DNA of 64,000 bases from Bacteroidales bacterium (GTDB lineage: Bacteria; Bacteroidota; Bacteroidia; Bacteroidales; TTA-H9), in assembly GCA_030656615.1 (NCBI GenBank), contig JAUSOY010000058.1, positions 1 through 64,000 on the forward strand, written 5' to 3'. Shown in pieces: positions 34,798 to 56,749 of this stretch. The notes beneath the pieces are model-generated. The model made no database searches and had not been told where the DNA came from. It saw only the letters and a list, made by a program, of their open reading frames with translations. The position numbers and the translations under genes are program-made. Each line of letters starts with the position of its first letter. The first letter of the stretch is position 1.

Positions 34798-36987
34798 TTA
34801 TAGTTTTATAAATTTTAAGCGCAAACTATTACTTACAACTGAAACCGAACTAAATGCCATGGCTGCACCGGCAATCATTGGACTTAGCAGCCATCCGCCG
34901 AAAGGGTATAATAGTCCTGCCGCTAGTGGTAAGCAAATAATATTGTAGAAAAATGCCCAAAATAAGTTTTGCTGAATGATACTAAGTGTTCTTTTTGAGA
35001 TTTTAATGGCTTTTGGTATCTGTAATAAATCGGCCCCCATGAGGGTTATGCCGGCAGTTTCCATGGCTATGTCGCTACCATGTCCCATGGCAATGCTTAC
35101 ATTGGCCTCGGCAAGTGCAGCAGCATCATTGATGCCATCGCCCACCATTGCCGTTATTGAATTTTTACCCTGACTTTCTTTTATAATCTGGTGTTTATCT
35201 TCAGGCAGCAATTCTGAATGCCAGGCAGTAATGTTGCATTCATTTGCTATCCGCATTACTGCACTTTCTTTGTCACCGCTTAAAATTTCGATTTCAATGT
35301 TGAATTCATTTAATTGCTCTACCACTGATTTTGCTTCTGGTTTAACAGGATCATTAATAAGAAAACGGGCCAGGCATTTGGATTCGTCTGAGAAATAAAC
35401 TTCAGAAAGGCCATAGTCTGTTCCTGTTTTTGATGTATCGATGGTAATGTTATTATTAATAAGTAATCGATTACTCCCGATAAAATATCGTTTCCCTTGA
35501 TAACTTCCGGATATTCCCATGCCAGGAATTGCCTCAAAATTCTCTATTTCCAACTGTTGTCCAAAATCTTTGTAAAAATCAACAATGGCTGTTGAAAGCG
35601 GGTGCTCTGAAAGTCGTTCCATGGCCGCTACAACGTGTTTAAAAGCCAGCTGGTCATCCGTCCACCATTCTTCCTTTGTTAGCGTGGGCATTCCGAAGGT
35701 TAGAGTTCCGGTTTTGTCGATAAACAATTTATTTATTCTGGCTGCCATTTCCAGATTTGACGCATCCTTTATTAAAATACCTTCCAAAGCAGCACGATTA
35801 ATCCCCGACATGATGGCTGCCGGTGTTGCCAAGCCCAATGCACACGGACAAGCAATAATTAGTACACTGACCATGCTGAGAATAGCATGATTAAGGTGTT
35901 CAAGTCCGCCTATGGCCAGCCATAATCCAAAAGTGATAACGGCAAGCAAAATTACCACGGGTACAAACCAGGCTGAGATTTTATCCGCAAGTTTTTGAAT
36001 TGGAGCTTTTGATGCCTGCGCTTCACGAATAATACGTACGATATGCGCCAGATGCGTATCATCGCCGGTATGTTCTGCTAAAATCAGTAAACTTCCCTGT
36101 TGGTTTTGCGTTCCGGCCTTTACTTCCTGTCCCTTTTCTTTTTTAACAGGCAAAACCTCACCACTAAACATACTTTCATCTACCCACGATTGCCCGCTGA
36201 TGACTTTCCCATCCACGGGAATACGGTCGGAAGGTTTTATTCTTACCCGGTCATATAATTTTACTTCATCAACTCCAATGGTGATTTCTTCATTGTTGCG
36301 GACTACAGTTAGTTGTCGGGGCTGAAGATCCATTAATAAATGGATGGCCAGTGCACTTTTGGTTTTGGCTTTCTCTTCAAGAAATTTACCGAGAAGTATA
36401 AAGGCAATAATTATCGCGGATGATTCAAAATAAACGGCCGGCATCAGTCCCTTTTCAATAAAAAAGGAAGGATTCAGAAGACTGAAGGATGAAAAAACGA
36501 ATGCAACACCTGTGCTCAGGGCTACAAGTGTATCCATGGTTGATCGTCCTTTAAGAGCTTGTCGCCAGGCAGATGTGTAAAATCTTCTACCTGGAAATAT
36601 CATCAAAACGAAGGTAAGAACGAATGAGAAATAGGCCAGATTGTGATAATGATGAAAGAACATTCCCTGTATAAAAACAGGTATTGCTAATATGGATGCA
36701 AATATTAGCCTCTTTTGCAATTGCTTGAGTTCGTTTTTGCGATGATTGATCGAATTATTTCCCTGAGCATCATCTTCCAGAGGAGTATAACCGATGTCTT
36801 TGATTTTTTTTGAGATGTCAGAAAGCTTAGTGGTTTCGTCCTCAAATTCTATAAGTACCGTGTTTTCTGCAAGATTGGCAGCAACGTTCACCACACCTTT
36901 CATTTTACCAACTTCCTTTTCGATACCACTTACGCAGGAGGCACAAGTCATTCCGGATACCGGGATTATTCTTTTAATCGTATTCAT
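34798..36987 (-). CDS. copA: copper-translocating P-type ATPase
   Basis: The protein has 729 residues from ATG 36987 (MNTIKRIIPVSGMTCASC); the frame opens five codons earlier at 37002. The N-terminal HMA domain carries GMTCASC. Eight membrane segments follow the P1B topology, with the ion-binding CPC in ACPCALGLATP, the TGE-like actuator loop in SMFSGEVLP (SGE here), the phosphorylation site DKTGTLT (Asp429 counted from 37002), the HP motif in SEHPLSTA and the hinge GDGINDAAAL. It exports Cu(I) from the cytoplasm. The CPC motif with GMTCASC strongly supports copper. It is flanked by ygbA upstream and the HMA chaperone downstream, all on one strand. Confidence 0.93.
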   Translation of the reverse strand: MNTIKRIIPVSGMTCASCVSGIEKEVGKMKGVVNVAANLAENTVLIEFEDETTKLSDISKKIKDIGYTPLEDDAQGNNSINHRKNELKQLQKRLIFASILAIPVFIQGMFFHHYHNLAYFSFVLTFVLMIFPGRRFYTSAWRQALKGRSTMDTLVALSTGVAFVFSSFSLLNPSFFIEKGLMPAVYFESSAIIIAFILLGKFLEEKAKTKSALAIHLLMDLQPRQLTVVRNNEEITIGVDEVKLYDRVRIKPSDRIPVDGKVISGQSWVDESMFSGEVLPVKKEKGQEVKAGTQNQQGSLLILAEHTGDDTHLAHIVRIIREAQASKAPIQKLADKISAWFVPVVILLAVITFGLWLAIGGLEHLNHAILSMVSVLIIACPCALGLATPAAIMSGINRAALEGILIKDASNLEMAARINKLFIDKTGTLTFGMPTLTKEEWWTDDQLAFKHVVAAMERLSEHPLSTAIVDFYKDFGQQLEIENFEAIPGMGISGSYQGKRYFIGSNRLLINNNITIDTSKTGTDYGLSEVYFSDESKCLARFLINDPVKPEAKSVVEQLNEFNIEIEILSGDKESAVMRIANECNITAWHSELLPEDKHQIIKESQGKNSITAMVGDGINDAAALAEANVSIAMGHGSDIAMETAGITLMGADLLQIPKAIKISKRTLSIIQQNLFWAFFYNIICLPLAAGLLYPFGGWLLSPMIAGAAMAFSSVSVVSNSLRLKFIKL

Positions 36988-37026
36988 CGGTATTTTCAAC
37001 AATTATTCAGAAGGAAAGTTCGTGAT

Positions 37027-37332
37027 TTACGGCTTGATTTTTCGAATATAATATCGAAGGGCGAGAATGGGATGTCGCCAAATTATTCTGGGACCAGAAT
37101 ATCGCATAACTTTTTTCATTTCTTCGCGATAATCGGGATGAAAACAATGTACTGTACACCTATTGCAAATGGGTTTGTTTTTACCAAAAGAGCAACGACC
37201 AATTTTACCCATAGCATACATAGCAAGTTCGTTACACTCGCAACACATGCCGAATTTCTTGCCGTGATGGGCATTGCAATAAATTCGTGTCAATGCGATT
37301 AAAGTTCTTTTTTCTCTTCGCAGTTTATCCAT
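37027..37332 (-). CDS. ygbA: YgbA-family nitrosative-stress protein
   Basis: This 101-residue cytoplasmic protein matches the YgbA/nitrous oxide-stimulated promoter family (PF11756). It has eight cysteines: C19, C30, C31, C33, C47, C56, C59 and C63, in IYCNAHH, GMCCECNEL, RCSFGKNKPICNRCTVHCF, and the conserved tail MRYSGPRIIWRHPILALRY. The many cysteines suggest a zinc or iron-sulfur site. In enterobacteria ygbA is controlled by NsrR and helps cells recover from NO. Here it lies about 40 bp upstream of copA and 33 bp after the end of the glycan operon, on one strand. Cotranscription with copA is likely; no promoter is obvious in the small gap. Confidence 0.9.
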   Translation of the reverse strand: MDKLRREKRTLIALTRIYCNAHHGKKFGMCCECNELAMYAMGKIGRCSFGKNKPICNRCTVHCFHPDYREEMKKVMRYSGPRIIWRHPILALRYYIRKIKP

Positions 37333-37365: not shown

Positions 37366-38100
37366 TTAATTCATTAGTCTGGAGGATACAGGCTCGATAA
37401 TTATTTGTATCTGATCAATCAGAACACCTTGCTTTGTATTTTGTTCATTTGTGCATATGTTGTAACACAAAATGTATACCCAGCGTGCTTCAGTATTCTT
37501 ATTGTAAATATAGTGAATCTCTGAATCTATTACAAGTTTTTTCAGACTTTGGTAGTGAATTTTTTCTAATGGATCTGTACTAACTGCAAAATCTATTTTA
37601 ATTTGTTGATTATCGAAAGCCGTTTTGACTATTATTTTAGAAATATTGACAGAGGTTCCCAGCGAGATTTTTAAAAGTACACTATCCCCGAAAAAGCGAA
37701 TTGGATTATGAGGAATGCTATCGAAAAGGCTGAGCAGTGTACTTTTACCATAGACCGAATCGTATAATGCCGATGAAGAGACCCATTCAATATGGGGAAT
37801 GCGCCTGAATGTATATGCGGCATTATTATTTAAAACATTTTTTTTATGACTAATGGCTCTTAAACCACAGCTACGACTAATTAATATCGGTCTTTTATAT
37901 GCACCCGAGGCAGAGTCGGGGGATGTGCCATCGAAACTATAATAGACACTATCTGAAGGAAAAATTCTGACTTCCAGCGATCGACTGAAAAAAAAAGTGT
38001 CTTTTATTCTTTCCTGAAGGCTATATACTCCCAACGATTCCTGACTCCAACCGATGAGTGGGAAAAAGATAATTATTAAGGAATATATTGTTTTTTTCAT
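37366..38100 (-). CDS. secreted protein with chitobiase C-terminal-like domain
   Basis: The protein has 244 residues from ATG 38100 (MKKTIYSLIIIFFPLIGWSQ), with a clear signal peptide; the frame extends nine codons further but that overlaps the GH20 gene. Residues about 40-100 hold a chitobiase/hexosaminidase C-terminal-like domain: VYYSFDGTSPDSASGAYKRP with the sugar-associated YTFRRI end. A beta-rich domain follows (about 120-240), perhaps an F5/8-type or other jelly-roll fold. The gene starts one base after the GH20 stop, whose product carries the same type of chitobiase C-terminal domain. It may be a carbohydrate-binding accessory of GH20, but this is inference, and no enzymatic motif is seen. 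Confidence 0.65.
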   Translation of the reverse strand: MKKTIYSLIIIFFPLIGWSQESLGVYSLQERIKDTFFFSRSLEVRIFPSDSVYYSFDGTSPDSASGAYKRPILISRSCGLRAISHKKNVLNNNAAYTFRRIPHIEWVSSSALYDSVYGKSTLLSLFDSIPHNPIRFFGDSVLLKISLGTSVNISKIIVKTAFDNQQIKIDFAVSTDPLEKIHYQSLKKLVIDSEIHYIYNKNTEARWVYILCYNICTNEQNTKQGVLIDQIQIIIEPVSSRLMN

Positions 38101-38101
38101 T

Positions 38102-40459
38102 CTAATAAACAATAAGTTCGTCAGCAAAAAGCCAGGCTATTTCTCCCGAAGCAATATGATTTTCAGGACAAATACCTTGATTTTTAACTTTTAAGCGTAT
38201 ACTTTTAACATTGGCGTTAACTTTGGTAGAATACCTCCAATAGCCGGCTTTTTCATTTTTGTTCAGTAGGATTGGTTTCACTGTCAGAGGTTTAAATGTT
38301 TTATCATCATCAGAAACCTCAATAACTACATTGGTAGGTTTAAAAATCCAGGCAGCTTGATTTTCGAGGAAACTAATAGCGATGCTGTCAACGGATTTTG
38401 GTTGATCAAATTGAAGAGAATATTCAAGATCATCGCCTTTGAATCCCAGCCATTGCCCGTTATTGTGCACTAAGCCACCACATATGCCATCTGTAAGTGT
38501 TTGCCCCCCCTGTGCGGAATACTTAAAGTATGGGTCAGAAACTAATTTTGTTTTACCACCCAGCCCTTTATGAATAATAATATCATAAGAGGTGGATTTT
38601 TCTTTGATTTTATCGTTTTCGAAAATACCCGATTTAATTGTGAGTGAATTTTCGATGCGGACTGGTCCATCGTAGGTTTTCGATTGCATATTTGGCTCAC
38701 GGCCATCGAGTGTGTATTTAATAAGGGGTTCGAATTGTTCTGAATTCAGATTAATATAGTATACCGATGCGGTAGAGTTCCAGGCTGGTGTCATATCTGT
38801 TTTATACGAACCTTTTGAATAGTTAATTTCTGTAGAATCAAAAATCTGAAAATGATGACGAAGTCGTCGTCGGAAGTCCTGATAGTCAATCCGATTTTCT
38901 TGCGACCAGCATACTTCGGCCATGGCTAACATGCGGGGTATAGCCATATACAATACATGCGATTCGGTGGCCATGTATTCTGTCCAAATGTTGCCCTGAG
39001 CGCCCAGAATATGTTTTTTATTTGATTCATCCAAAGAAGGGGGTATCGGATTGAACTCATAGACCTTTTTTAAGGTTAGAAAACCTCCGATGGCTTCTGG
39101 TTCTGTTTCCGGATCGGCCTGATAATAATCAAAATAGCAGTGTGAAGTGGGCGTCATGATAACATCGTGGCCTTGTGTAGCCGCTTCAATGCCTCCTTCC
39201 ATTCCCCGCCATGACATTACGGTGGCACCGGGTGATAATCCACCTTCCAGAATTTCGTCCCAACCGATAAGTTTTTTGCCTCTTGCCGTCAATATTTCTT
39301 CTGCTTTATGAATGAACCATGATTGAAGTTCATTTTCGTCTTTAAGATTTTCCTTTTTTATCCTCGTCTGGCATTTTTTACATTGTTTCCATTGGGTTTT
39401 GTCTGCCTCATCACCCCCGATATGGATGTATGGGCCCGGAAAAAGAGAAGCTACTTCATCCAGTACATTTTCTATGAATTCAAAAACACCATCATTTCCG
39501 GCGCATAAAATATCCGTATTTGGCCAGTATGAGCCTGATTGAACGTCAAGTTTTTTTCCACGGCAAGAAAGCTCGGGATAAGCGGCAAAAATTTCACTGG
39601 AATGCCCGGGCATCTCAATTTCAGGAATTATTAAGATGTGCCGTTTTGCAGCATAGGCGATAATGTCTTTAATCTCATCTTGTGTATAAAATCCTCCTTT
39701 AGTAGCTTTCTCACCGGGTTTTGGAGGTTCATGTTGCCTCCAGTTCTGTTGATCTCTGTCAACATGCCAGGCACAAATGCCAGTGAGCTCGGGATATTTT
39801 TTTATTTCGATGCGCCAGCCATTATCATCGGTAAGATGCCAATGAAAAACATTCATTTTAAAAGTAGCCATCAAATCGAGGTACTTTTTGATAAAATCAG
39901 GACCAAAGAAATGCCTCGAAACATCCAGATGCATTCCACGATACGAAAAACGAGGCTTGTCAGTGATATTAATGGCTGGAAGTTTTATCCTTTCTGTCCG
40001 AGTATTTGGGAAGTGAAACTCTATCGGTATGAGTTGTAATAAACTTTGAATGCCATAAAATAATCCAGCTTGTGTATTGGCTTGAATCACCAATCCAGAA
40101 TTGGAGGATGTGAGTTTATATCCTTCTGCTCCCAGCGCTGAATCGGCATTATATGTAGAGAGTAAAATACTGTTATGAAAACCATTGATGTCTTCGAAAT
40201 GTTGAATCTGAGGTTTCGTGCCTATGATTTTTTCAATAATTCCGGCCAGTAATTCAGCGGTTTCTTTGGTTTCCTTTTGGTCTGATTGTAAGATGATGGG
40301 TGTTTCCTTATCAACGACAAAACCATCTGGTCCGTTATGTCCAAAGCGCATTGGCCTAGGGATAAGGTACTTTTCATCATCAAATTTTTTGGATGGACTG
40401 CAGGCCGAGAAAAATCCAAAGAAAATAATCCCTATTAAAATGAATTGTAATGTTTTCAT
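38102..40459 (-). CDS. GH20 beta-N-acetylhexosaminidase lipoprotein
   Basis: This 785-residue enzyme removes terminal beta-linked GlcNAc or GalNAc. It has a lipobox FFSAC (Cys20), so it is likely anchored in the periplasm or outer membrane. A GH20b domain (about 35-155) precedes the catalytic barrel (about 165-520), with the signature Asp350-Glu351 in HIGGDEADKTQW, where Glu is the acid/base and Asp orients the acetamido group. Sugar-site residues SRHFF, HWHLTDDNGWR and WDEILEGG are present. A chitobiase C-terminal domain (about 570-620) and an F5/8-type carbohydrate-binding domain (about 650-785) follow. It overlaps the NahK-like gene by four bases. Confidence 0.93.
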   Translation of the reverse strand: MKTLQFILIGIIFFGFFSACSPSKKFDDEKYLIPRPMRFGHNGPDGFVVDKETPIILQSDQKETKETAELLAGIIEKIIGTKPQIQHFEDINGFHNSILLSTYNADSALGAEGYKLTSSNSGLVIQANTQAGLFYGIQSLLQLIPIEFHFPNTRTERIKLPAINITDKPRFSYRGMHLDVSRHFFGPDFIKKYLDLMATFKMNVFHWHLTDDNGWRIEIKKYPELTGICAWHVDRDQQNWRQHEPPKPGEKATKGGFYTQDEIKDIIAYAAKRHILIIPEIEMPGHSSEIFAAYPELSCRGKKLDVQSGSYWPNTDILCAGNDGVFEFIENVLDEVASLFPGPYIHIGGDEADKTQWKQCKKCQTRIKKENLKDENELQSWFIHKAEEILTARGKKLIGWDEILEGGLSPGATVMSWRGMEGGIEAATQGHDVIMTPTSHCYFDYYQADPETEPEAIGGFLTLKKVYEFNPIPPSLDESNKKHILGAQGNIWTEYMATESHVLYMAIPRMLAMAEVCWSQENRIDYQDFRRRLRHHFQIFDSTEINYSKGSYKTDMTPAWNSTASVYYINLNSEQFEPLIKYTLDGREPNMQSKTYDGPVRIENSLTIKSGIFENDKIKEKSTSYDIIIHKGLGGKTKLVSDPYFKYSAQGGQTLTDGICGGLVHNNGQWLGFKGDDLEYSLQFDQPKSVDSIAISFLENQAAWIFKPTNVVIEVSDDDKTFKPLTVKPILLNKNEKAGYWRYSTKVNANVKSIRLKVKNQGICPENHIASGEIAWLFADELIVY

Positions 40460-41541
40460 CGATCGTGTTTTTTGATTATATCATGAATGATGGCCTGATT
40501 CTTTTCCATATCAGCCAACATGGCAAATTGTGAACGAGCCCTCACAAGATTATGGGTTTCATATGTTGTTTTATAATAAATATCTCCGTTGAGATAATCA
40601 GTTAAAAATCTTAATCCAATGATAAAAGTAAGCAATTGTGGAGCTATTGGCAGGATGTTTTTTTCTTCAGGGCTTAACATGTTTTTAGTCAGTGAAAGCC
40701 AGGCCGAAGTCCATGCTTCAAAAAACTCTAATTGGATACCGGCTTTACTGGTTTCCACTTCATCTTCAGAAGTTTTACTGGCAGAAGTGCGGATGGCATC
40801 ACCAAAATCGTGCAGTATGGAGCCCGGCATTACGGTATCCAAATCAATCATGCAGATCCCTTTCATGTTTTTATCAAACAGAATGTTGTTGATTTTGGGA
40901 TCGTTATGGGTTACACGCTTTGGAAGATTGGCGATAGCCAGATCATACGGTAAAAGCCTATCGATGTTTGTTTCAGCGACTTCCAGCTCTTTTGGAATGT
41001 TTTTTGCCCGTTGGAAAGCATCCTTGTCAAGAGCATCTTCAAATTGATTTTTTCGCAAAATCAGGCTATGAAAATCAGGAAGAGTCGTATAAAGTTTTTG
41101 AGCATCGAGTTTTTTAAGGCTTTGATGAAAAAGACCTGTAATACGGCCCGCTTCATGAGCAGAGTCATCATTTTCTACGGTGTCAATGGTTTGGCTGCCG
41201 GCAATATAGCTCATTGCCCTCCAGGCACTGCCTGTTTCATCCCATTGGATTATTTCCTTGTTTGAGCCATATATTAATTGAATGGTCGCGTTTTCTGAGG
41301 AAGTACTTTGTTGGGCAATATGCTGTGTTACCAACTCAATATTACACATCATTTTTTCGGCTTCGCGAAATATTTTTGTGTTGATGCGTTGAAGAATGAA
41401 TGGCTTGGACTGATCACGATTGACAAGGAAAGTATCATTGATGTGCCCTGAGCCATAGGATTCTATCGAATACAGCTTCTGCGAATCGAATCGCAGAGCC
41501 ATCTCTTCGATAGTTTCATTTTTTATGTTGTGAGCATTCAC
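40456..41541 (-). CDS. nahK: NahK-like N-acetylhexosamine 1-kinase
   Basis: This 361-residue cytoplasmic aminoglycoside-phosphotransferase-fold enzyme closely resembles bifidobacterial NahK/LnpB (about 359 residues): SYGSGHINDTFLV, LQRINTKIF, and the catalytic THNDPKINNILFD followed by MIDLDTVMPGSILHDFGDAIR. NahK phosphorylates GlcNAc or GalNAc at C1 to give HexNAc-1-phosphate for nucleotide-sugar formation. Start is a GTG at 41541, overlapping the stop of the upstream nucleotidyltransferase gene by one base. The gene is between GH20 and that nucleotidyltransferase in a tight operon, so substrate HexNAc is probably produced by GH20. Specificity for GlcNAc versus GalNAc is not readable. Confidence 0.85.
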   Translation of the reverse strand: MNAHNIKNETIEEMALRFDSQKLYSIESYGSGHINDTFLVNRDQSKPFILQRINTKIFREAEKMMCNIELVTQHIAQQSTSSENATIQLIYGSNKEIIQWDETGSAWRAMSYIAGSQTIDTVENDDSAHEAGRITGLFHQSLKKLDAQKLYTTLPDFHSLILRKNQFEDALDKDAFQRAKNIPKELEVAETNIDRLLPYDLAIANLPKRVTHNDPKINNILFDKNMKGICMIDLDTVMPGSILHDFGDAIRTSASKTSEDEVETSKAGIQLEFFEAWTSAWLSLTKNMLSPEEKNILPIAPQLLTFIIGLRFLTDYLNGDIYYKTTYETHNLVRARSQFAMLADMEKNQAIIHDIIKKHDR

Positions 41542-42455
41542 TACCAGAGACGTGTGGGATATATCCCTTTTTGGGTAAGTTCAATCAGTTTATTAACCAC
41601 CGTCGGACGGTCTTCAGGAAAAGTAACGCCAAACCATTGTTCGTCGATGTCGAGAACTTTAAACCGGGCCTTTCCACTTTGAATGAGCGTATCAGCAACC
41701 GTGGGGATATAAAATTCTGCCTTGGGATCATTCTGATTTTTCTGAAGAAATTCGATGAACATCTTTTCAAAATCCTCAAAAATATCCGGAAAAAATCCCC
41801 AGGTATTCATCGATACAAATGTTTCGGAAGGAAGGAAAACCAATTGATTTTTTTCGTCGGGATATGCAATAAGTTTATGGGTTTTATGAATGTTTTTTAT
41901 TTCGGTTACAGTCATAAGATAGCCTTCGTCATTGCATTCGCACACGCCTCTTGAAACACCACCATGTTCACTTAATGTATTGGCAATACGATAACCAGCT
42001 AGTGCATATTCTTTGGATTGATGCGCTGTTTCACTAAAAAATGCGGCCAGTGCTTCAAAAGCACCTTTGCCGTAAAAATCATCGGCATTAATTACTGCGA
42101 ATGCTTCCTTGATTTTGTCTTTCGCCATTAATACGGCATGTCCGGTTCCCCATGGCTTTGTCCTTTCTGCCGGAACATTGAATCCAGCAGGAAGCTTATC
42201 AATTTCCTGAAAAACATAGTCTACTTCAATGGCATCGCCATAACGCGTTCCGAAAAAACTAATAAACTCCTGTTCAATTTGTTTACGGATTATAAAAACG
42301 ACCTTTCCGAATCCACAACGGATGGCATCATAAATCGAATAATCAATAATTGTTTCGCCGGATGGCCCTAATTGGTCCAATTGTTTGAGGCCACCATAAC
42401 GGCTTCCGATACCTGCGGCAAGTACTAATAATGTGGGTTTTGATGTATTTGTCAT
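41541..42455 (-). CDS. sugar-1-phosphate nucleotidyltransferase
   Basis: This 304-residue enzyme has the N-terminal nucleotide-binding motif LAAGIGSRYGGLKQLDQLGPSGE, the metal-binding NADDFYGK, and a C-terminal FYIPTVADTLIQSG block. It couples an NTP with a sugar-1-phosphate. By context it probably turns HexNAc-1-phosphate made by the NahK-like kinase into UDP-HexNAc, as LnpC or a GlmU-type activity does in the lacto-N-biose pathway, but the sequence is not a close LnpC homologue by eye. It is 13 bp upstream of the end of the MFS transporter gene and overlaps the nahK start by one base. Confidence 0.8.
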   Translation of the reverse strand: MTNTSKPTLLVLAAGIGSRYGGLKQLDQLGPSGETIIDYSIYDAIRCGFGKVVFIIRKQIEQEFISFFGTRYGDAIEVDYVFQEIDKLPAGFNVPAERTKPWGTGHAVLMAKDKIKEAFAVINADDFYGKGAFEALAAFFSETAHQSKEYALAGYRIANTLSEHGGVSRGVCECNDEGYLMTVTEIKNIHKTHKLIAYPDEKNQLVFLPSETFVSMNTWGFFPDIFEDFEKMFIEFLQKNQNDPKAEFYIPTVADTLIQSGKARFKVLDIDEQWFGVTFPEDRPTVVNKLIELTQKGIYPTRLW

Positions 42456-42468
42456 AGTCTGAATAGAA

Positions 42469-43728
42469 TTACCATTTTCTTAGTTTATACCATTTACCGG
42501 CATATAAAAGAATAACAAGATAACAAGGAATTAGGATCGTATACGCTTTTTGTGGGCTGGTGATATCGGCTAAAAATCCCCAAACTAAAGGCAAAATGGC
42601 TCCACCTGCGATGGCCATAATGAGAATGGCAGAGCCTGTTTTAATAAATTTTCCTAAATCGTGAATGGCTAATGGCCAGATGGCCGGCCATACCAATGCA
42701 TTTGCGAAGCCTAAGGCAGCTATAAAAGCAATTGAATAATATCCTTTTGTCAGTAAAATGCCTCCGGTAAATATCAAACCCAGAATGGCAGAAACTAATA
42801 AAGCAAACCGTTGTGAAATGAAATTAGGAATAAAAATAATACCGCCAATGTATCCTACAACCATAGCGATGAGCGTAAATGTGGTGAAATTTTTTGCTTC
42901 GCCTAAGGGAATTCCAATTTGAGTCCCATATGCAATAATGGTATCACCGGCAATTACTTCTGCACCTACATAAAAGAATAATGCAAGAGCGCCAAGAATC
43001 AACTGTGGGAACTGAAAAATACCCGTTTTACTGTTAATTTCTTCATTTTGAGTTTCCTCTGCTTCAACTTCCGGAAGTGGTGAAAAACGTATCATCAGAC
43101 CCAGCAAAAATAAGACGATGGACATTCCGATGTATGGATTTATAACTCTGGCGGCTAGTTCGTCTAAAGCAGCAGTTTTCTCACCCGGTAGTAAGGTTTC
43201 GAGACTTGAAACCAATTCATCTCCACCTTTTAGAATAAAATAGGCCAGAATTAAAGGAGCAATGGCACCGGCCACTTTATTGCAAATTCCCATAATGCTG
43301 ATTCGCCTTGCTGCACTATCGAGAGGACCTATGATGGTGATGTAAGGATTGGATGCTGTTTGTAAAAGAGCCAATCCACTGCCCATTATAAATAATCCTG
43401 CAAGAAATAATTCGAAAGTACGACCAAGGGCGGCGGGAATAAATACCAGTGTGCCCAAAGCCATTACCCATAAACCAATCATCATTCCATTACGGAAACC
43501 CGTTTTTCGTAAAACCCAGGATGATGGCAGTGCCATAACCGTATAGCTGATGTAAAATGCAAAAGCCACAAAGAGCGATTGGAAATTACTGAGCTCGCAT
43601 GAAATCTTTAAGTAGGGAATCAGTATTCCATTAAGCCAGGTGACGAAACCAAAAATAAAAAATAAGGTTCCGATGATGCCGATGGATAAGGCATAGTTTG
43701 GACGCAGACGATGTTGGGTAGCTTGCAT
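42469..43728 (-). CDS. sugar MFS transporter (FucP/NagP-like)
   Basis: This 419-residue inner-membrane protein has about 12 hydrophobic segments and the FucP-family features: FFIFGFVTWLNGILIPYL in TM1, the QTASNPYITIIGP loop, and GICNKVAGAIAPLI. Relatives import fucose (FucP), GlcNAc (NagP) or glucose/galactose by H+ symport. By context it may carry GlcNAc, GalNAc or galactose. It is 13 bp before the nucleotidyltransferase and 6 bp after the GH2 gene, so it is part of the operon. Confidence 0.9.
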   Translation of the reverse strand: MQATQHRLRPNYALSIGIIGTLFFIFGFVTWLNGILIPYLKISCELSNFQSLFVAFAFYISYTVMALPSSWVLRKTGFRNGMMIGLWVMALGTLVFIPAALGRTFELFLAGLFIMGSGLALLQTASNPYITIIGPLDSAARRISIMGICNKVAGAIAPLILAYFILKGGDELVSSLETLLPGEKTAALDELAARVINPYIGMSIVLFLLGLMIRFSPLPEVEAEETQNEEINSKTGIFQFPQLILGALALFFYVGAEVIAGDTIIAYGTQIGIPLGEAKNFTTFTLIAMVVGYIGGIIFIPNFISQRFALLVSAILGLIFTGGILLTKGYYSIAFIAALGFANALVWPAIWPLAIHDLGKFIKTGSAILIMAIAGGAILPLVWGFLADITSPQKAYTILIPCYLVILLYAGKWYKLRKW

Positions 43729-43734
43729 AATTGC

Positions 43735-48250
<4,516 letters not shown>

Positions 48251-48254
<4 letters not shown>

Positions 48255-50965
48255 TTTTGAATGCTTACTGAGGTTTGGATTTTATGTATCATAACACTTT
48301 CGGACTTTGACAGGCGTGCGGATGGCAAAGGAGGATAAATCCCAATCGTATAGTTGCCTTTATTCTGGGTCTCATAAATATAGGCTTCCTCCTGAGGTGA
48401 ATGTTGTAGCCAAATTTCCGTTTCGCCTGTAAAATCTTTACCGGCAACTGCGAAGTTAAGTTTTATTTCGGCATTTTCTGAACCCAATGGAATCGTATAC
48501 CAGGCCCATAAACGGTCTTTGTTGATAAATGCTTTTGTTTCAATACCATTGATAAATATGGTTAAATCGGGAATACTTGTTTCGGTTGCAGGAGAATGAC
48601 TCTTTACTTTTATTGCCATTTCCATCGAAATTTCTTCCACCGGATTATATTCTAAAATCAGCTTGTTTTTTGCTTCAGGATTTTTACAAATGAGTGATTT
48701 TTTTATTCTTTCAGGTGAAATTACCGCAACATCTTTTCCCGCTCTTGTTAATCGAAGTTTTTTGATTTTGTCTGGTCTCGATAAATCATTTTTGGTTAAA
48801 GATTTTAGGCTGTTAATCAGGATTTTATTGTCTTTATATTCAATACTAAAGGGTGTGTTGACCGGTAGATTATCTTTTATTTCTGCACGAGGCATGAGTT
48901 CAAAAATGGCCGTTTCGAAGCCACTCAATGGTATTATTATTTTATCACCCGTTTTGAATTCGTCCTTAAAAATGAAATGAAAGGGATAAACCTGATGCAG
49001 AACCAATCCATTGGCCGATGCATTTAATCCCTGCGAAGCATCAAGAACGATTTCTATGGAAGTTTCTTCAATCACCGGATTCCGTATAGCGATAATCCCT
49101 TTGTTTCCTTTGAAATGTGAATATCCATAAGCTTCACCTTTTGCCGGATTTCTGCCTATCATAAAGGTTTCTGATAGAATATCTGCTCTGTCGCGTGCCC
49201 ATTTCATCGATTGTGATATGGCGGTCCATTCTTCAGGATTCAAAATGTCAGGTGAAATGTATAGTTCGTACATACTTACTCCTCTGGCAAAGTAGAAAAG
49301 AACATCATTGGTAAATTTATCAATGGGGTCAACTTCGCCACCCAAACGCTCCAGTTCGCCCTTTATAATGCCATGAGTCATCAGATTGGCAATGGGAAAC
49401 CATAAATCTTTGGTTTTAAAATCTTCATATAAAACCATGTCGCGGTAGGTAATGGCTGCATCGCGCATACTGATGGAAGGAACATCTGCCCAGTCGTGAT
49501 CGGCGCCATCCATCCATATTTGATTGGCATACATGACCCACCACGGGCTAAGCCAGGTACCGCTGGTAATGTTTAAATATACATCGGGTGAAACATTCCT
49601 CACCGACCGGCACATCCGTTTAACACTTTCCATAACGGCTCTTCGGGAGTATTCGCCGATGGCATGGCCGTGATCGCTTTCGCTGCAAGAAAACTGAATT
49701 CCATCCCATTTGAAATATCGCACCCCTTCATTTTTTGTAAAATCAACGACTCTTTTTTCGAACAAGTTTGAATAGTTTTTTCCTGCCAGACAAAGCATGG
49801 CATCGTCGCGTGTTTTTCCGACAACTTCATAATTATGCTTTTTCATCCAGTCGATGCGCTTCATACGGAATGAATAACCACCCGTTGGGCCAAACCAAAT
49901 ACCCAAATCGGTATTTAGTTTCCGGAGTTCTGCCGAAATATTTTTCATCCCGTTTGGGAATTCCTTTGCCTTGGTTACCCAATCACTTTCATACACATCC
50001 CATCCATCATCCAAAACAAAAGCATCGAGTTTAATATCGTGTTTTTCGATCATGTTTTCACGAATCAGTTTGATGATTCGCATGACGTTTTCTTCATTCA
50101 TGTGATATTTGGGTGCAACGCGCGGATATTCTGTTGCTCGTAAATCGTACCAGCTGTTATATAATGCGTAGGGTTTTGCGGGTGCAACACGGATATCTAT
50201 AACGTATTGCATAAAGTGTAATTTAACATTATGGTCTGGAGTCAAGCCTAAAACGGTCCAGTCGCTTGCCAGCCATTCGGCATCGGCCTTTTCACCCATT
50301 TCTTGTCCGCAACGGAAAAGAGGTACATTGTTTTCGGATAGTAATTCATTTGTAGCAGCGGGATATTCAAGACCGGCAAAAAAGCCTCCATTGTGGGAAG
50401 TTGCTGCCACGGGTTGACCGAACCCACCGCGTTTTATTACATCAATGGAGCTATGAATGCGTGAATTGTATGGAAAGAGTTTTTTAATAAAATGATATCC
50501 ATAAAGGCTATCGCGGACAGAAATACGCTTTCTGACCCAGGGTTTTCCAGCTACCGTTTGATATTCAATTTTTAGTTGAAGTTCTGAATCATCAGCATCC
50601 AGAAAAAGAGTAATACTTCCGGAAATGGATTGATCGATCTTTTTTATTGTAAAATCTTTTAAGGCCAGATTGTAATCATTGTCTGCGTTATTTTCTCTGT
50701 TGGGTGGTCTCCATGATGTCCAGAACGTTTCGATACGGATATCTTCATCGGTATCAATCATTATTGGGGGAGTGGCTTTTTGCTTATCAGAAATCAAGGT
50801 GTAGGTTCCGGATGCCAGTTTATTGTTGGCAATGGCCAGTTCGAGCTTGATATTTTCGTTGCTGGTTTCAAGTATTTTAATGAAAGGCTTACGTTCGCGT
50901 TGTCCATTGATATTTGCAGACAAAATCAGGAACAAGATGGCGGTAAATAAAGTTTTGAATTTCAT
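48251..50965 (-). CDS. secreted GH36-like (clan GH-D) alpha-glycosidase
   Basis: This 904-residue protein has a signal peptide ending ANINGQ. After a beta-rich N-terminal domain (about 30-270) comes a barrel with YNSWYDLRATEYPR, FVLDDGWDVYESDW, and the likely nucleophile Asp421 in YFKWDGIQF, as in GH36/GH27 clan enzymes. The block SGTWLSPWWVMYANQIWMDGADHDW would carry the acid/base region. A beta-sandwich and an additional C-terminal region complete it. The likely substrate is an alpha-linked galactose or N-acetylgalactosamine. By context with GH20 and a HexNAc kinase, alpha-GalNAc is attractive but unproven. It is the first structural gene after the ROK regulator. Confidence 0.75.
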
Positions 50966-50991
50966 GGTTTGTATTGGATTTTGATTTGGTC

Positions 50992-52221
50992 TTACATTAC
51001 ATCTTTGAATAAGTGTTGAATCAGACTTACATGGGCTCCCAAAAGAACGGCCTGATGTCCTAGTTGTGAAGTTACTATTTCAGTTCCTTCCGCGAATTTT
51101 TGAACAGGAATACTATGCATTGCTTGCTTAATTGGATTTATAATCAAGTCGCCTGTACCTGCAAAACAACCACCAATAATGATCATTTCCGGATTGAGAA
51201 GTATTATTAATGTGCTGATTCCCAATCCAAGTTCATGACCTGTGTCTTGTATGATTTTTTTGCACGATGCGTGTCCTTGTTGGGCAAATTCCAGAATTCC
51301 TTCGTAGAAGTTTTTGTTGCCCGCTGCGGTTGTTTTTTGAATCACAGAAACATCTTCTGTGGATAATATTTCCATAGCACTTTTTTCCATGGCAGGTCCA
51401 CTTACGATGGTTTCAAGACAACCCTCCTGACCACAATAACAGGGTATTAATGAATTAGTACCTTTAGTGTGCCCGAATTCTGCAGCTGAACCTGTATTAC
51501 CACGGTATAATTGTCCGTTTAGTATCATACCCATACCTAATCCTGCTCCAACATTGATGCACAATACATCGTTTTTTCCGGCAGCTAGCCCAAATACATG
51601 CTCACCCCGCGTCATTAGCCGGGCATCATTATCAATCAGTACATCTTTATTTAACTTATTGTGGAGAAAATCCCATAAATTGGGTTCTAATTCGGTAAAA
51701 TATGATCTCGATATTTTTTTATCCGGATCAATCAGACCAGGCAGAGCAACTGAGATTCCGGAAATTTTTGAAAAAGGTACCGCAGACTCGAGGATAAAAA
51801 GTTCAATAATCGAAACAAGCCATTCGGCATAGGCCTGATTATCCTCTAATTTTTTAATATGTGTTTTTATGGGATGATGTATTTCATTATTGAAATCAAT
51901 GAGTGCCATTCGAACATCTGAAATGCTGATATCCAGACATAGAGAATAACATGCACGTGATTTAATTTTGTATTGATGTGGTTTTCGTCCGCCTTCTGAT
52001 GGCCCTTCGCCCATATCTTCAACAAATGCATCGGCTATTAACTCCTTAATTAACCGATCGACCGAAGGCATACTTATTTTAAGTTCCCGCGACAGAAGTG
52101 GAATAGTCTGAGGGCCTGAACTATTCATCCGATGAACTATTTTTTTCTTCAGATGATTGCGTTTGTGACGAACAGCCGTTGAATTACTAGGGGTATCGCT
52201 TATAAAATCAAACATTGTCAT
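50992..52221 (-). CDS. ROK-family transcription regulator (NagC/Mlc-like)
   Basis: This 409-residue protein has an N-terminal winged HTH (about 25-80, LLSRELKISMPSVDRLIKEL) and a ROK sugar-kinase-like domain with the zinc-binding CYCGQEGCLE and the glycine-rich INVGAGLGMGMILNGQLYRGNTGSAAEFGHTK. NagC and Mlc, members of the same family, respond to GlcNAc-6-P and PtsG. It is at the head of the glycan operon, 26 bp upstream of the GH36-like gene, so it probably controls the whole set in response to a HexNAc or galactose derivative. The DNA target is not identified; a divergent Pho-controlled operon lies upstream. Confidence 0.92.
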   Translation of the reverse strand: MTMFDFISDTPSNSTAVRHKRNHLKKKIVHRMNSSGPQTIPLLSRELKISMPSVDRLIKELIADAFVEDMGEGPSEGGRKPHQYKIKSRACYSLCLDISISDVRMALIDFNNEIHHPIKTHIKKLEDNQAYAEWLVSIIELFILESAVPFSKISGISVALPGLIDPDKKISRSYFTELEPNLWDFLHNKLNKDVLIDNDARLMTRGEHVFGLAAGKNDVLCINVGAGLGMGMILNGQLYRGNTGSAAEFGHTKGTNSLIPCYCGQEGCLETIVSGPAMEKSAMEILSTEDVSVIQKTTAAGNKNFYEGILEFAQQGHASCKKIIQDTGHELGLGISTLIILLNPEMIIIGGCFAGTGDLIINPIKQAMHSIPVQKFAEGTEIVTSQLGHQAVLLGAHVSLIQHLFKDVM

Positions 52222-52304
52222 CCATGTTTTTATGGGCGAAGATATGATAAATTACTTATTAAATTTTTTTATAAAGATGATTAGATCTGCAATTCATGGA
52301 TGAT

Positions 52305-52336: not shown

Positions 52337-52432
52337 GGATAAAGTAACAGCGATTACTTTGCAGCATGAAAATGACCAGAAATGATAAATCAATTTCAAC
52401 AGTATTATAAAACAAAAACAATAAAGATTTTT

Positions 52433-53722
52433 ATGAAAACACGATCAATCTTTAGCATCATTGTCATCCTTATGATGGCAATATCGACCAAAGCTCAGGT
52501 GAATGAACCCAGTCCGCTGGATACACTTACTGCTTACACTTCGAAACTGTCATCTACGCTTGATAAATTTCAGAAGCTAAAAATTTCTGGCTATATTCAG
52601 GCACAGTACCAAAAAGCTGATACAGCAGGAATTTCATCCATGGCCGGTGGTAACTTCCCAACCAATAGCGATAATATTTTTAAAGTACGACGTGGAAGAC
52701 TCAAATTTCAACATACAGGTGATTATAGTCAGTTTGTTGTACAGTTCGATATTACAGAAAAGGGGATGGGCATTAAAGATGCGTATGCAAAATTTACTGA
52801 TCCTCTTATTAATGTATTTAGTATTACTTCCGGGGTTTTTAATCGCCCATTTGGTTACGAAATTGGTTATTCGTCATCAAAAAGAGAAAGTCCTGAGCGT
52901 TCACGCATTATTCAGACTCTTTTTCCAGGAGAACGTGATTTGGGTGCTATGCTTACCATTCAGGCTCCCAAAGCCTCACCCTGGCATTTCTTAAAACTCG
53001 ATGCAGGAATCTTTGCCGGTAATGGAACACAATCAGAGTTTGATAATGGAAAAGATATTATTGGCCGTTTGGGTATTGAAAGGAATACCCGCAATGAAAA
53101 AATGAAATACGGCTTAGGTGTGTCCTATTATAATGGCCGTGTTTATCAAGGAACCAATAATTTGTTTGAAATGAATAATGCAGGCACTTCTGCTGCATTT
53201 TCAAAAATTGACGCCGATAGCATCCCTGGAACCTTATTAAAACGCGAATATCTTGGCGTTGATGCCCAGTTTAATCTAGAAAGCTTCTTAGGAATAACTT
53301 CAGTGATGGCCGAATATGTAAGTGGTACGCAACCATCAGCACTAAAATCGAATGCCAGCCCTTCCAAATCCATTCCGGATTACGATACCTATTTAAGAAA
53401 CGTAAGTGGTGCTTATGTTTATTTCATTCACTCCATTGCAGGTACCCGCCATTCGATAATCGCCAAATACGATTTCTTCGACCCCAACACCAAGGTAAAA
53501 GGCGATGAAATTGGAATGAAAGATTCCGGACAAACAGCCACAAACTCCGCTGACCTTCAATATACAACGCTGGGTCTTGGATGGATTTGTGCCATAAATA
53601 GCAATACCCGAATGACCCTTTATTATGATATTGTTACAAATGAAACATCTTCCAATCTCAGTGGATATTCAAAAGATTTGAAAGACAATGTGATAACATT
53701 GCGATTACAGTATAAATTTTAA
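52433..53722 (+). CDS. phosphate-selective porin (OprP/OprO-like)
   Basis: The protein has 429 residues from ATG 52433, chosen because it opens a signal peptide MKTRSIFSIIVILMMAISTKAQ; the frame extends upstream to 52382. A short coiled-coil-like stretch precedes KISGYIQAQYQ, the first strand of the barrel, followed by FKVRRGRLKFQHTGDYSQFVVQFDI, as in the OprP family (PF07396). The C-terminus LQYKF is an outer-membrane terminal strand. It mediates phosphate or related anion uptake across the outer membrane. It is the first gene of the pst-phoU operon and directly downstream of the candidate Pho box, consistent with phosphate-starvation induction. Confidence 0.9.
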   Translation: MKTRSIFSIIVILMMAISTKAQVNEPSPLDTLTAYTSKLSSTLDKFQKLKISGYIQAQYQKADTAGISSMAGGNFPTNSDNIFKVRRGRLKFQHTGDYSQFVVQFDITEKGMGIKDAYAKFTDPLINVFSITSGVFNRPFGYEIGYSSSKRESPERSRIIQTLFPGERDLGAMLTIQAPKASPWHFLKLDAGIFAGNGTQSEFDNGKDIIGRLGIERNTRNEKMKYGLGVSYYNGRVYQGTNNLFEMNNAGTSAAFSKIDADSIPGTLLKREYLGVDAQFNLESFLGITSVMAEYVSGTQPSALKSNASPSKSIPDYDTYLRNVSGAYVYFIHSIAGTRHSIIAKYDFFDPNTKVKGDEIGMKDSGQTATNSADLQYTTLGLGWICAINSNTRMTLYYDIVTNETSSNLSGYSKDLKDNVITLRLQYKF

Positions 53723-53763
53723 TGATACGAAATCACTTAGTAAAGAATTAAAAATTTAAAGAA

Positions 53764-54576
53764 ATGAAAAAATTAGTATTAATAGTATTCGCCATTGTAT
53801 CAGTTATGGGTGGAATGGCTCAGAAAATAAAAGGTAGTGATACCGTATTGCCCCTTTCTCAGAAAGAAGCGGAGCAGTTTATAAAAAACAGCAGCATGGC
53901 CCGCGTCACAGTTACCGGAGGTGGTTCAGGAGTTGGTATTGCGGCACTGATTGATGGTACTACTGAAATTGCTCAGGCATCGAGAAAAATCAAAATGGAC
54001 GAAAAAATGAAACTGAAAGAAGCAGGGGTAAGCTACAAAGAAGTTATCATTGCCAACGATGCACTTGCCGTTGTGGTTAATCCTAAAAATAAGGTAAGCA
54101 ATTTAACTCGTGAACAACTTGAGGGCATATTTACAGGTAAAATTAATAACTGGAAAGCGTTAGGTGGCGACGATATGAAAATCGTGGTCTATTCCAGAGA
54201 AACATCCTCAGGTACCTATGAATTTTTTAAGGATCATGTAATGAATCGTAAGAATTTCGCCCTCGATGTGTTATCGATGCCAGCCACCGGTGCTATTATT
54301 CAAAGTGTTGGTCAAACTGCCGGAGCTATTGGATACGTTGGCCTGGCATATCTTCATCCCTCGGTTAAAGCCATTCATGTTTCCTACAACAAAGGTAAAA
54401 CGTATATAGAGCCATCCATGGCAACAGCAGTAAATAAGACGTATCCAGTCGTTCGCCCTTTGATGTATTATTATAATTCCAAGGATGAAAGTAAAGTCAA
54501 AAAGTATATTGATTATGTTTTGTCGCCTGAAGGACAAAAAATAGTTGAGCAGGTAGGATATATTCCAGTTAAGTAG
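53764..54576 (+). CDS. pstS: periplasmic phosphate-binding protein PstS
   Basis: This 270-residue protein has a signal peptide (about 1-19, ending GMAQ). The phosphate-binding features are IKGSDTVLP, TGGGSGVGIAALIDGTTEIAQASR and the loop YSRETSSGTYEFF, with QTAGAIGYVGLAYL after. It captures phosphate in the periplasm and delivers it to PstCA. It is 41 bp after the porin gene and 60 bp before the PstC start in one operon. Confidence 0.95.
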   Translation: MKKLVLIVFAIVSVMGGMAQKIKGSDTVLPLSQKEAEQFIKNSSMARVTVTGGGSGVGIAALIDGTTEIAQASRKIKMDEKMKLKEAGVSYKEVIIANDALAVVVNPKNKVSNLTREQLEGIFTGKINNWKALGGDDMKIVVYSRETSSGTYEFFKDHVMNRKNFALDVLSMPATGAIIQSVGQTAGAIGYVGLAYLHPSVKAIHVSYNKGKTYIEPSMATAVNKTYPVVRPLMYYYNSKDESKVKKYIDYVLSPEGQKIVEQVGYIPVK

Positions 54577-54636
54577 TAGTGGTTGACGTAAATGCTTGTC
54601 CGTGGCCCAGCTGCGGATGAGCTTTTATCCATTTCA

Positions 54637-55842
54637 ATGAAAAAGAACAAATCATTTTTTACCAGATTTATTCAAAAGTTTGCAGAGGGACTGATAACGC
54701 TAAGTGGAGGTGTAACCAGTCTGGCTGTAATTTTAATTGTGGTTTATCTTTTTAAAGAGAGTGTTGGGTTGTTTCAAAGAACCACGGTAGCACAGGAATT
54801 TGTTATGGCAGTTCATAAATCAAATTCCATTGACCATCTCGATGCTACGAAGATAAAGCTCGTTTTTGATCAGGAGATTACTAATTGGAAACAGCTTGGT
54901 GGTCCCAACGATACCATTATTACTTTCCGTTGGGAAGATGCCGGATATTATTTTACGGAAGAAGAAATGGGAGCCGATTTTGAAAATCTTCCCCATTGCA
55001 TAGCTGTTATGGCCGATACGATGACCGGCATGTTGGCTTTTATTCCGAAGCATTATATTACGAATGAATTTACCGGTAAGATTCTGAGCGAGGAAAAGGT
55101 AAGCCCGGGAAGTTTTTTCTTTGGAAAAGAATGGTTTCCAACGGCGGAGCCTGCAGCTCAGCTCGGTGTTTGGCCTCTTATTATGGGCACATTATGGGTA
55201 AGTCTGGGGGCTATTTTATTATCGTTGCCATTGGGTTTAGGAGTGGCAATCTACCTTTCTGAGATTGCTTCTGATAAACTTCGAAGAGTTATTAAGCCCC
55301 TCATCGAATTACTTGCTGGTATTCCCTCGGTCGTTTTTGGGTTCTTTGGTCTTGTAATCATTGTACCAATAATACAGCGGTGGTTTGATTTACCCGTTGG
55401 AGAAACAGCCCTGGCCGGGAGTGTTATTTTGGCCATTATGGCTCTTCCAACTATTATTACGATTGCAGAGGATGCCATGCGTACTGTTCCCCGCTCCATG
55501 CGTGAAGCAAGTCTGGCTTTGGGCGCAAGTCGCTGGCAGACAATATACAGGGTAGTTGTTCCATATGCCGCTTCGGGAATTTCCGCAGCTGCCATTTTAG
55601 GTGTTGGAAGGGCCGTTGGGGAAACCATGGCTGTGTTGATGGTTACCGGTAATGCTGCAATTATTCCCCATTCTTTTTTCGAACCTGTACGAACAATTCC
55701 TGCCACCATCGCTGCTGAGTTGGGAGAAGCACCACAGGGCGGTATTCATTATGAAGCACTCTTTACACTTGGAGTCATTTTATTTGTAATCACCTTATGC
55801 ATTAACCTCCTGGTTGATTATTTATCGACCCGCAAGAGGTAA
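54637..55842 (+). CDS. pstC: phosphate ABC transporter permease PstC with inserted PstS-like segment
   Basis: The protein has 401 residues from ATG 54637; an upstream frame ATG at 54592 is less likely. It is longer than usual PstC (about 300-320). TM1 is near residues 22-40; then residues about 51-145 form an extra periplasmic part that aligns with PstS, including DATKIKLVFDQEITNWKQLGG versus the PstS text TREQLEGIFTGKINNWKALGG. The PstS phosphate loop is not conserved there. Five more membrane segments follow, with the ABC permease EAA loop MREASLALGASRWQTIYRVV. With PstA it forms the inner-membrane channel for phosphate. Confidence 0.93.
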   Translation: MKKNKSFFTRFIQKFAEGLITLSGGVTSLAVILIVVYLFKESVGLFQRTTVAQEFVMAVHKSNSIDHLDATKIKLVFDQEITNWKQLGGPNDTIITFRWEDAGYYFTEEEMGADFENLPHCIAVMADTMTGMLAFIPKHYITNEFTGKILSEEKVSPGSFFFGKEWFPTAEPAAQLGVWPLIMGTLWVSLGAILLSLPLGLGVAIYLSEIASDKLRRVIKPLIELLAGIPSVVFGFFGLVIIVPIIQRWFDLPVGETALAGSVILAIMALPTIITIAEDAMRTVPRSMREASLALGASRWQTIYRVVVPYAASGISAAAILGVGRAVGETMAVLMVTGNAAIIPHSFFEPVRTIPATIAAELGEAPQGGIHYEALFTLGVILFVITLCINLLVDYLSTRKR

Positions 55843-55863
55843 TTATTTTTTGTAATCTGTATT

Positions 55864-56745: not shown

Positions 56746-56749
56746 TTAC

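Follow-up and report, generated by a model that had tools for sequence, protein, structure and literature searches.

Described relatives of the operon

Among the described systems closest to the operon considered here, the bifidobacterial lacto-N-biose/galacto-N-biose (LNB/GNB) pathway, with the proteins NahK, LnpB and LnpD, employs an anomeric N-acetylhexosamine (HexNAc) kinase and takes both HexNAc and galactose (Gal) via sugar 1-phosphates to uridine diphosphate (UDP) sugars. The operon itself occupies positions 52221 to 37366 (minus strand) of a 64,000-nucleotide stretch (the window) of contig JAUSOY010000058.1 from a Bacteroidales bacterium (assembly GCA_030656615.1), and its nine co-directional genes include those for a nucleotidyltransferase, here termed NT, and a NahK-type kinase, here termed KIN. 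It resembles the bifidobacterial pathway in its predicted anomeric kinase and in the predicted passage of both sugars through 1-phosphates, but hydrolases are found where the bifidobacteria have the phosphorylase, NT (of the PF00483 type) where they have the GalT-like LnpB, and a major facilitator superfamily (MFS) importer where they have an ABC importer. No GNB/LNB phosphorylase was found among the nine operon proteins, to which this search was confined, in keeping with the original prediction that hydrolases stand in for a phosphorylase.

In Bacteroides thetaiotaomicron, BT4240 is an N-acetylgalactosamine (GalNAc) 1-kinase with an approximately 275-fold preference over N-acetylglucosamine (GlcNAc), and is required for growth on GalNAc (Ndeh 2025, PMC11992087). 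It belongs to operon 1 of the BT4240-50 locus, together with BT4241 (glycoside hydrolase family 2, GH2), BT4242 (MFS) and BT4243 (GH109). As in the window, a NahK-type kinase, a GH2 galactosidase and an MFS importer are found in one Bacteroidota operon, and in the published model Gal and GalNAc are freed in the periplasm. Unlike the window, operon 1 as listed in that article contains no nucleotidyltransferase, CutC, GH20 or ROK protein, and next to operon 1 are SusCD, an M60-like peptidase and a sigma/anti-sigma pair. BT4240 is likened to KIN here, as another NahK relative, from its published description rather than from a sequence comparison. The main text of the article does not contain the terms 'nucleotidyl', 'UDP' or 'epimerase', and leaves GalNAc 1-phosphate at 'downstream metabolism'.

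On the galactose side, galY (Amuc_0031) encodes a PF00483 nucleotidyltransferase that was predicted to replace galT in 70 genomes, in a study whose GalNAc pathway is confined to Actinobacteria, Firmicutes and Proteobacteria (Ravcheev and Thiele 2017, PMC5583593). NT is likewise a PF00483 nucleotidyltransferase of galK+ galT- genomes. GalY was, however, proposed for galactose only, and the passages on it mention neither a kinase partner nor HexNAc 1-phosphate (HexNAc-1-P). In an Akkermansia sp. locus (L234), an NT relative (48% identity, for the L234 protein) adjoins a KIN relative. Elsewhere, Persicobacter has galK without GalT, and a HIT protein proposed for the missing step was, unlike galK and galE, not raised in the second growth phase (PMC5300873); for Akkermansia, in which galK is reported and a galT candidate was not found, a toxic build-up of galactose 1-phosphate (Gal-1-P) has been proposed (PMC13313206).

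The operon is thus of a known kind, and its parts were known or predicted earlier, in 2025 for BT4240 and in 2017 for galY. The original prediction that this is an undescribed route is not supported, given these two precedents and the finding that NT-KIN pairs are widespread. Among the open-licence PMC papers listed, none joins NT to a NahK-type kinase, or tests NT, in its title or the start of its abstract, and neither the coupling nor the reading of NT as a shared enzyme was met in the papers searched. On that reading, which we advance tentatively and with confidence somewhat short of even, NT is a UDP-sugar pyrophosphorylase of broad specificity, and completes the Leloir pathway as well as a HexNAc 1-phosphate route. 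The NT-KIN tandem would then be a so far unrecognised activation module of wide occurrence, with members in Bacteroidota, Verrucomicrobiota, Clostridia and others. It would fill the GalT gap of Akkermansia and of many Bacteroidia as well as the step lacking after BT4240-type GalNAc kinases, and in the window's organism HexNAc would pass straight to UDP-HexNAc. The gene patterns make NT one testable candidate for the missing GalT, and tie it to the NahK-type kinase whose product the B. thetaiotaomicron article does not follow further. If one enzyme serves both sugars, the two utilisation routes of Bacteroidota meet in a common step, and models of metabolism in which galactose or GalNAc counts as unusable would need revision.

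The nucleotidyltransferase and the kinase

The two genes at the center of this proposal are as follows.

41541..42455, minus strand: nucleotidyltransferase NT ('GalY' type), 304 residues, a predicted Gal-1-P and HexNAc-1-P uridylyltransferase (Pfam NTP_transferase, PF00483, over cut-off)
40456..41541, minus strand: NahK-type N-acetylhexosamine 1-kinase KIN, APH family, 361 residues (identified by NahK sequences of the PDB)

Each is present in a single copy in the window's genome. At an expect value (E) of <=0.001, KIN matches only three sequences in the PDB, all of them NahK (3.9e-67 to 5.2e-65). The best of these, 4ocu, aligns over residues 5-355 of 361, and the APH catalytic residues H212, D214, N219 and D233 are invariant in 32 aligned rows. 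This near full-length similarity and the catalytic motifs place KIN in the NahK family, as originally predicted, with a probable activity as a GlcNAc/GalNAc 1-kinase. For NT, by far the best match in the PDB is 3pnn, which is matched over its full length (5.5e-106) and is the nearest solved structure, deposited as 'conserved domain protein' with no function in its listing; one glucose-1-phosphate uridylyltransferase is matched weakly (0.0047). As a PF00483 protein in a galK+ galT- genome, NT falls within the description of GalY, and uridylylation of Gal-1-P is predicted for it.

Coupling of the pair across genomes

The association of NT with KIN was followed in a sample of 296 genomes from the phylum. 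KIN was found in 46, NT in 52 and both in 45 (Fisher p 1.5e-44, uncorrected for kinship), and in 23 of these 45 the two genes are same-strand neighbours. The 100 fetched stretches gave 86 kinase genes, a set to which the kinase gene of G096 (L136) does not belong; 39 of the 86 have an adjacent NT on the same strand, and NT is upstream in all 39. An alignment-based scan for named loci gave at least 590 matches; among the best 80 that were kept, 38 have adjacent NT and KIN genes, and these come from Bacteroidota, Clostridia, Verrucomicrobiota (including an Akkermansia), Lentisphaerae, Acidobacteria and others. One record appears in two of these different counts, as L169 and as L245.

The grouping of the operon's genes goes beyond chance, since relatives retain much of the gene set and its order, a conservation that is observed directly. 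A genome of the same family (G315, locus L158) has the series ROK-CutC-GH2-NagP-NT-KIN-GH20, arranged as here and 36-67% identical, and lacks the GH36-like gene. Shorter or altered versions are NT-KIN-GH20 in G428 (L159), ROK-(NagB-PIG-L)-NagP-NT-KIN-GH20 in L160, ROK-GH36-like-GH2-NT-KIN-GH20 in L169 and ROK-GH36-like-NagP-NT-KIN in L180. In same-strand KIN/NT runs of the fetched stretches, the NagP cluster recurs in 17, and the ROK, GH20 and GH2 clusters in 7 each; clusters from outside the window, each named on the strength of one or two scanned members, include GH109 in 18 runs, an SSF transporter in 10 and a 4-epimerase-like protein in 5. For many relatives the GH109 clusters and BT4240 suggest GalNAc as the sugar; the GH20 gene of the window is compatible with either HexNAc.

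A small CBM9-type protein cluster, of which one member was scanned, lies near KIN in 8 runs (L108, L186 and L103 among them), none of which holds NT.

Distribution of NT relative to galT and galK

In the phylum sample galT (PF01087) is present in 76 of the 296 genomes and galK in 125 (PF10509, E <1e-12, a threshold chosen after the scores had been seen and dropping the 15 weaker of 140 matches). Within the window's class, NT is found in 34/34 galK+ galT- genomes as against 8/24 that have both genes (p-values are uncorrected for kinship), and in 7 of those 8 it is coupled to KIN. The class set comprises 73 genomes and may leave out those that match nothing, with the galK+ counts unaffected. Over the whole phylum, the corresponding figures are 37/55 and 9/70. 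The same contrast recurs inside families, at 3/3 versus 1/17 in family f24 and 3/3 versus 5/17 in f6. There are also 7 genomes in which NT occurs without KIN, every one of them galK+ galT-, and 9 galT+ genomes in which NT is coupled to KIN. The signal linking NT to the lack of galT emerges among galK+ genomes and for uncoupled NTs.

In a quick tree of NT sequences, coupled and free-standing enzymes do not separate into two clades; the label changes 10 times at the least, and well-supported branches force 3 of these changes. The window's NT groups with coupled NTs of its own family, and the free-standing NTs nearest to it belong to its order. A single enzyme for both Gal-1-P and HexNAc-1-P is the simplest reading of these patterns. 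The original prediction that the kinase and nucleotidyltransferase lead towards nucleotide sugars is supported as far as the pair is concerned, and is changed in that gene occurrence suggests that NT serves Gal-1-P as well.

In 18 galK+ genomes of the phylum, all outside the class (G013, G034, G047, G085 and 14 others), neither galT nor NT was found.

Sugar metabolism genes in the window's genome

The genome was searched with family models, which establish directly that galK is present (C70), as is galE, over its curated cut-off, and that no protein matches PF01087, hence no GalT-like (HIT) uridylyltransferase was found. Galactose would be usable via GalK, NT and GalE if NT acts on Gal-1-P. 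For HexNAc, there is no match to nagA (TIGR00221) at E <=0.001 and no PF01182 (nagB) protein in the genome; its SIS-domain genes are of the GlmS, KpsF/KdsD and GmhA types, with no NagB-II/AgaS-type deaminase among them. Several joint absences make catabolism through HexNAc 6-phosphate (HexNAc-6-P) unlikely in this organism. Because no nagA, PF01182 or NagB-II/AgaS-type gene was found, HexNAc probably feeds biosynthesis chiefly, rather than serving as carbon for growth.

A phosphoglucomutase/phosphomannomutase-family gene at 18667-20061 of the window is possibly a GlmM or Pgm linking 1- and 6-phosphates.

Proposed pathway and alternatives

Our proposal, for which we would put the chances at about even, is that the operon serves the salvage of Gal and HexNAc, with NT shared by both, galactose catabolized without GalT, and HexNAc converted to UDP-HexNAc. 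The activities, substrates and locations in the scheme are all predicted, as is control by the ROK protein. The operon would probably be under its own ROK regulator. Outside the cytoplasm, secreted GH2, GH20 and GH36-like enzymes would release Gal and HexNAc from oligosaccharides, and the monosaccharides would then be taken up by a NagP/GluP-type symporter. KIN would then phosphorylate HexNAc to HexNAc-1-P, and GalK, encoded elsewhere, would convert Gal to Gal-1-P. With uridine triphosphate, NT would turn HexNAc-1-P into UDP-HexNAc and Gal-1-P into UDP-Gal; GalE would act at least on UDP-Gal, and galactose would so reach central metabolism without GalT. Because no gene for a GlcNAc 6-phosphate deacetylase or a glucosamine 6-phosphate deaminase was found, HexNAc would mainly go to UDP-HexNAc for the envelope.

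Several observations weigh against this proposal. KIN lacks an adjoining NT in 47 of the 86 cases, some of these at contig ends. NT is not a universal GalT replacement, because 18 of the 21 galK+ galT- genomes outside the class are without it, and another solution for Gal-1-P may operate there. When galK is ignored, there is no phylum-wide anti-correlation between NT and galT (galT in 10/52 genomes with NT and 66/244 without, p 0.30). The coupled and free-standing labels are more clustered in the NT tree than when shuffled (1/500 shuffles as low), so some specialisation of the two sorts is possible. For HexNAc salvage alone, three secreted hydrolases in a regulated operon seem excessive, and CutC has no role in the scheme. 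With the assembly in 90 contigs at 96.84% completeness, each of the absences drawn from model searches could be a gap. Finally, the NagB-PIG-L cluster, a NagB fused to a PIG-L type deacetylase (PRK02122 family), is found in the KIN/NT run of 7 relatives, namely L105 and L160, which were scanned, L100, L106 and L109, and L103 and L183, whose members are short. It points to catabolism there and suggests a catabolic version of the system, absent from the window.

It may be instead that NT is dedicated to HexNAc-1-P and to KIN, that a relaxed GalU or UDP-sugar pyrophosphorylase handles Gal-1-P, and that the galK/galT pattern reflects kinship. The nine galT+ genomes with coupled genes and the clustering of coupling in the tree would both fit such a dedicated enzyme, as would the divergent KIN-coupled NTs of f5 and f6 (a clade in each) and of f8 (a long row), which may be HexNAc-specific. 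The contrast of 34/34 with 8/24 within the class, its repetition inside two families (f24 and f6) and the seven KIN-less NT genomes, all galK+ galT-, argue the other way, and we consider this alternative unlikely. The same genomic absences that direct HexNAc to biosynthesis in our proposal (PF01182, TIGR00221 and a NagB-II/AgaS-type SIS gene) stand against a second alternative, in which HexNAc-1-P or UDP-HexNAc is converted to HexNAc-6-P and catabolized by unrecognised deacetylase and deaminase steps, perhaps with CutC. The operon does resemble a nutrient operon, CutC is part of it and is matched, marginally, by the deoC model (E 0.0009), the NagB-PIG-L cluster occurs in seven relatives' runs, and B. 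thetaiotaomicron requires BT4240 for growth on GalNAc (PMC11992087). Even so, we judge catabolism of this kind to be quite improbable in the window's organism.

The combination of folds and chemistry in NT and KIN is also that of AmgK-MurU, an anomeric N-acetylmuramic acid/GlcNAc kinase with a uridylyltransferase, and GH20-type enzymes are able to act on wall fragments, so that a cell-wall recycling pair has to be considered. KIN, however, matched only NahK entries at E <=0.001 in the PDB, with no direct comparison made to AmgK or MurU, the operon also encodes a beta-galactosidase and a GH36-like protein, and the GH109 cluster is found in 18 KIN/NT runs; we hold wall recycling to be very improbable. 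The salvage proposal with a shared NT is the one against which the remaining genes of the operon are described below.

Operon layout and the remaining genes

The order of the genes, read directly from the open reading frames, is ROK, GH36-like hydrolase, CutC, GH2, NagP/GluP-type importer, NT, KIN, GH20 and a small secreted protein. The seven genes other than NT and KIN are as follows.

50992..52221, minus strand: ROK-family regulator (NagC/Mlc-like), first gene of the operon (Pfam ROK 3.4e-51; NagC and Mlc models under their cut-offs)
48251..50965, minus strand: predicted secreted GH36/clan GH-D-like alpha-glycosidase, 904 residues (Pfam Melibiase 8.8e-9)
47514..48254, minus strand: CutC-family protein (Pfam CutC 2.5e-67)
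43735..47517, minus strand: GH2 LacZ-type beta-galactosidase with LamG insertion and signal peptide (likely ATG; open frame to 47529; NF052611)
42469..43728, minus strand: NagP/GluP-type inner-membrane sugar symporter, MFS (TIGR01272 gluP 280.8, cut-off 202.6)
38102..40459, minus strand: GH20 beta-N-acetylhexosaminidase, probable lipoprotein with Fn3-associated domain (Pfam GH20 1.1e-120; lipobox-like N terminus)
37366..38100, minus strand: small secreted protein with CHB_HEX_C/Fn3-associated domain, last gene (Pfam 8.1e-9; signal peptide; ATG 38100)

All of the enzymes named in the original prediction (GH36-like, GH2, GH20, importer, NahK-like kinase and nucleotidyltransferase) and the ROK gene inside the operon are present on the minus strand and recovered by model matches. 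The gene list was incomplete in that the CutC gene, between those for the GH36-like protein and GH2, had been overlooked, and the small signal-peptide protein at 37366-38100 has a separate gene. The packing is tight, although the claimed overlaps of 1-4 base pairs hold for four of the eight junctions: GH36-like/CutC (4 bases), CutC/GH2 (4, counted from the GH2 ATG at 47517), NT/KIN (1, counted from a GTG start, where the next ATG at 41502 would give a gap) and KIN/GH20 (4). The other four are gaps of 26, 6, 13 and 1 bases, the last counted with the final gene's ATG at 38100. As had been stated, there is no SusC/SusD beside the operon: no TonB-plug or SusD protein was found among the nine operon proteins and 17 other scanned window proteins, with no search made for a distant SusCD pair under the same regulator. 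The genome has 20 TonB-plug matches, none on the window's contig.

The three hydrolases are probably located outside the cytoplasm, as judged from signal peptides read by eye. The match of the GH36-like protein to Melibiase (35.2 bits, cut-off 27) spans residues 307-485 only, and the rest of the protein is mostly without a model. A profile of 4 rows nevertheless matched GH36 alpha-galactosidases in the PDB (best 1.6e-7), and DDGW, K-x-D and W484/D489 are invariant across these rows; an AlphaFold2 model from the same rows was poor (predicted local distance difference test score 53). Its substrate would be alpha-Gal or alpha-GalNAc, between which the sequence cannot decide. GH2 scores 1046 bits with the LacZ-type beta-galactosidase model NF052611 (cut-off 999), and has Pfam GH2 and Laminin_G_3 domains. 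GH20 contains a GGDEAD motif, which we take to be catalytic. The importer scores 418.3 with the NagP model, under the cut-off of 625.

CutC relatives share the run in L158, lie immediately upstream of KIN in L226 and adjoin GH2 in L168, a KIN stretch. No relevant paper linking CutC to glycan or sugar use was found among those listed from the open-licence PMC literature; one candidate, PMC10316084, was set aside, as 'CutC' there is part of an author name in the reference list. The thought that CutC might stand in for NagB was dropped, the cases being too few.

Upstream of the ROK gene there is a candidate operator, which we regard as a lead only.

52255..52276, minus strand: candidate ROK operator, an imperfect palindrome, with 21/22 bases common with the region upstream of ROK in L186

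In L186, 20 shuffles of the upstream region reach at most 18 bases, compared with the 21 observed. Among the other eight ROK upstream regions, seven are not above their own 20 shuffles, and L120 is above by one base. The window contains a single site at <=3 mismatches, with 0.05 expected.

Neighbouring genes in the window

A divergent operon of the phosphate-uptake type (52382-57502) starts 160 bases from ROK, and encodes a porin O/P-like protein, a phosphate-binding-type protein, two permeases and an ATPase. Directly downstream of the glycan operon, at 34798-37332, are genes for a P-type ATPase with an HMA domain and a YgbA-type protein (nitrous oxide-stimulated promoter family). Further along, 25361-30970 encodes a protein of 1869 residues that combines SprB repeats with a type IX secretion signal of the CHU_C kind.

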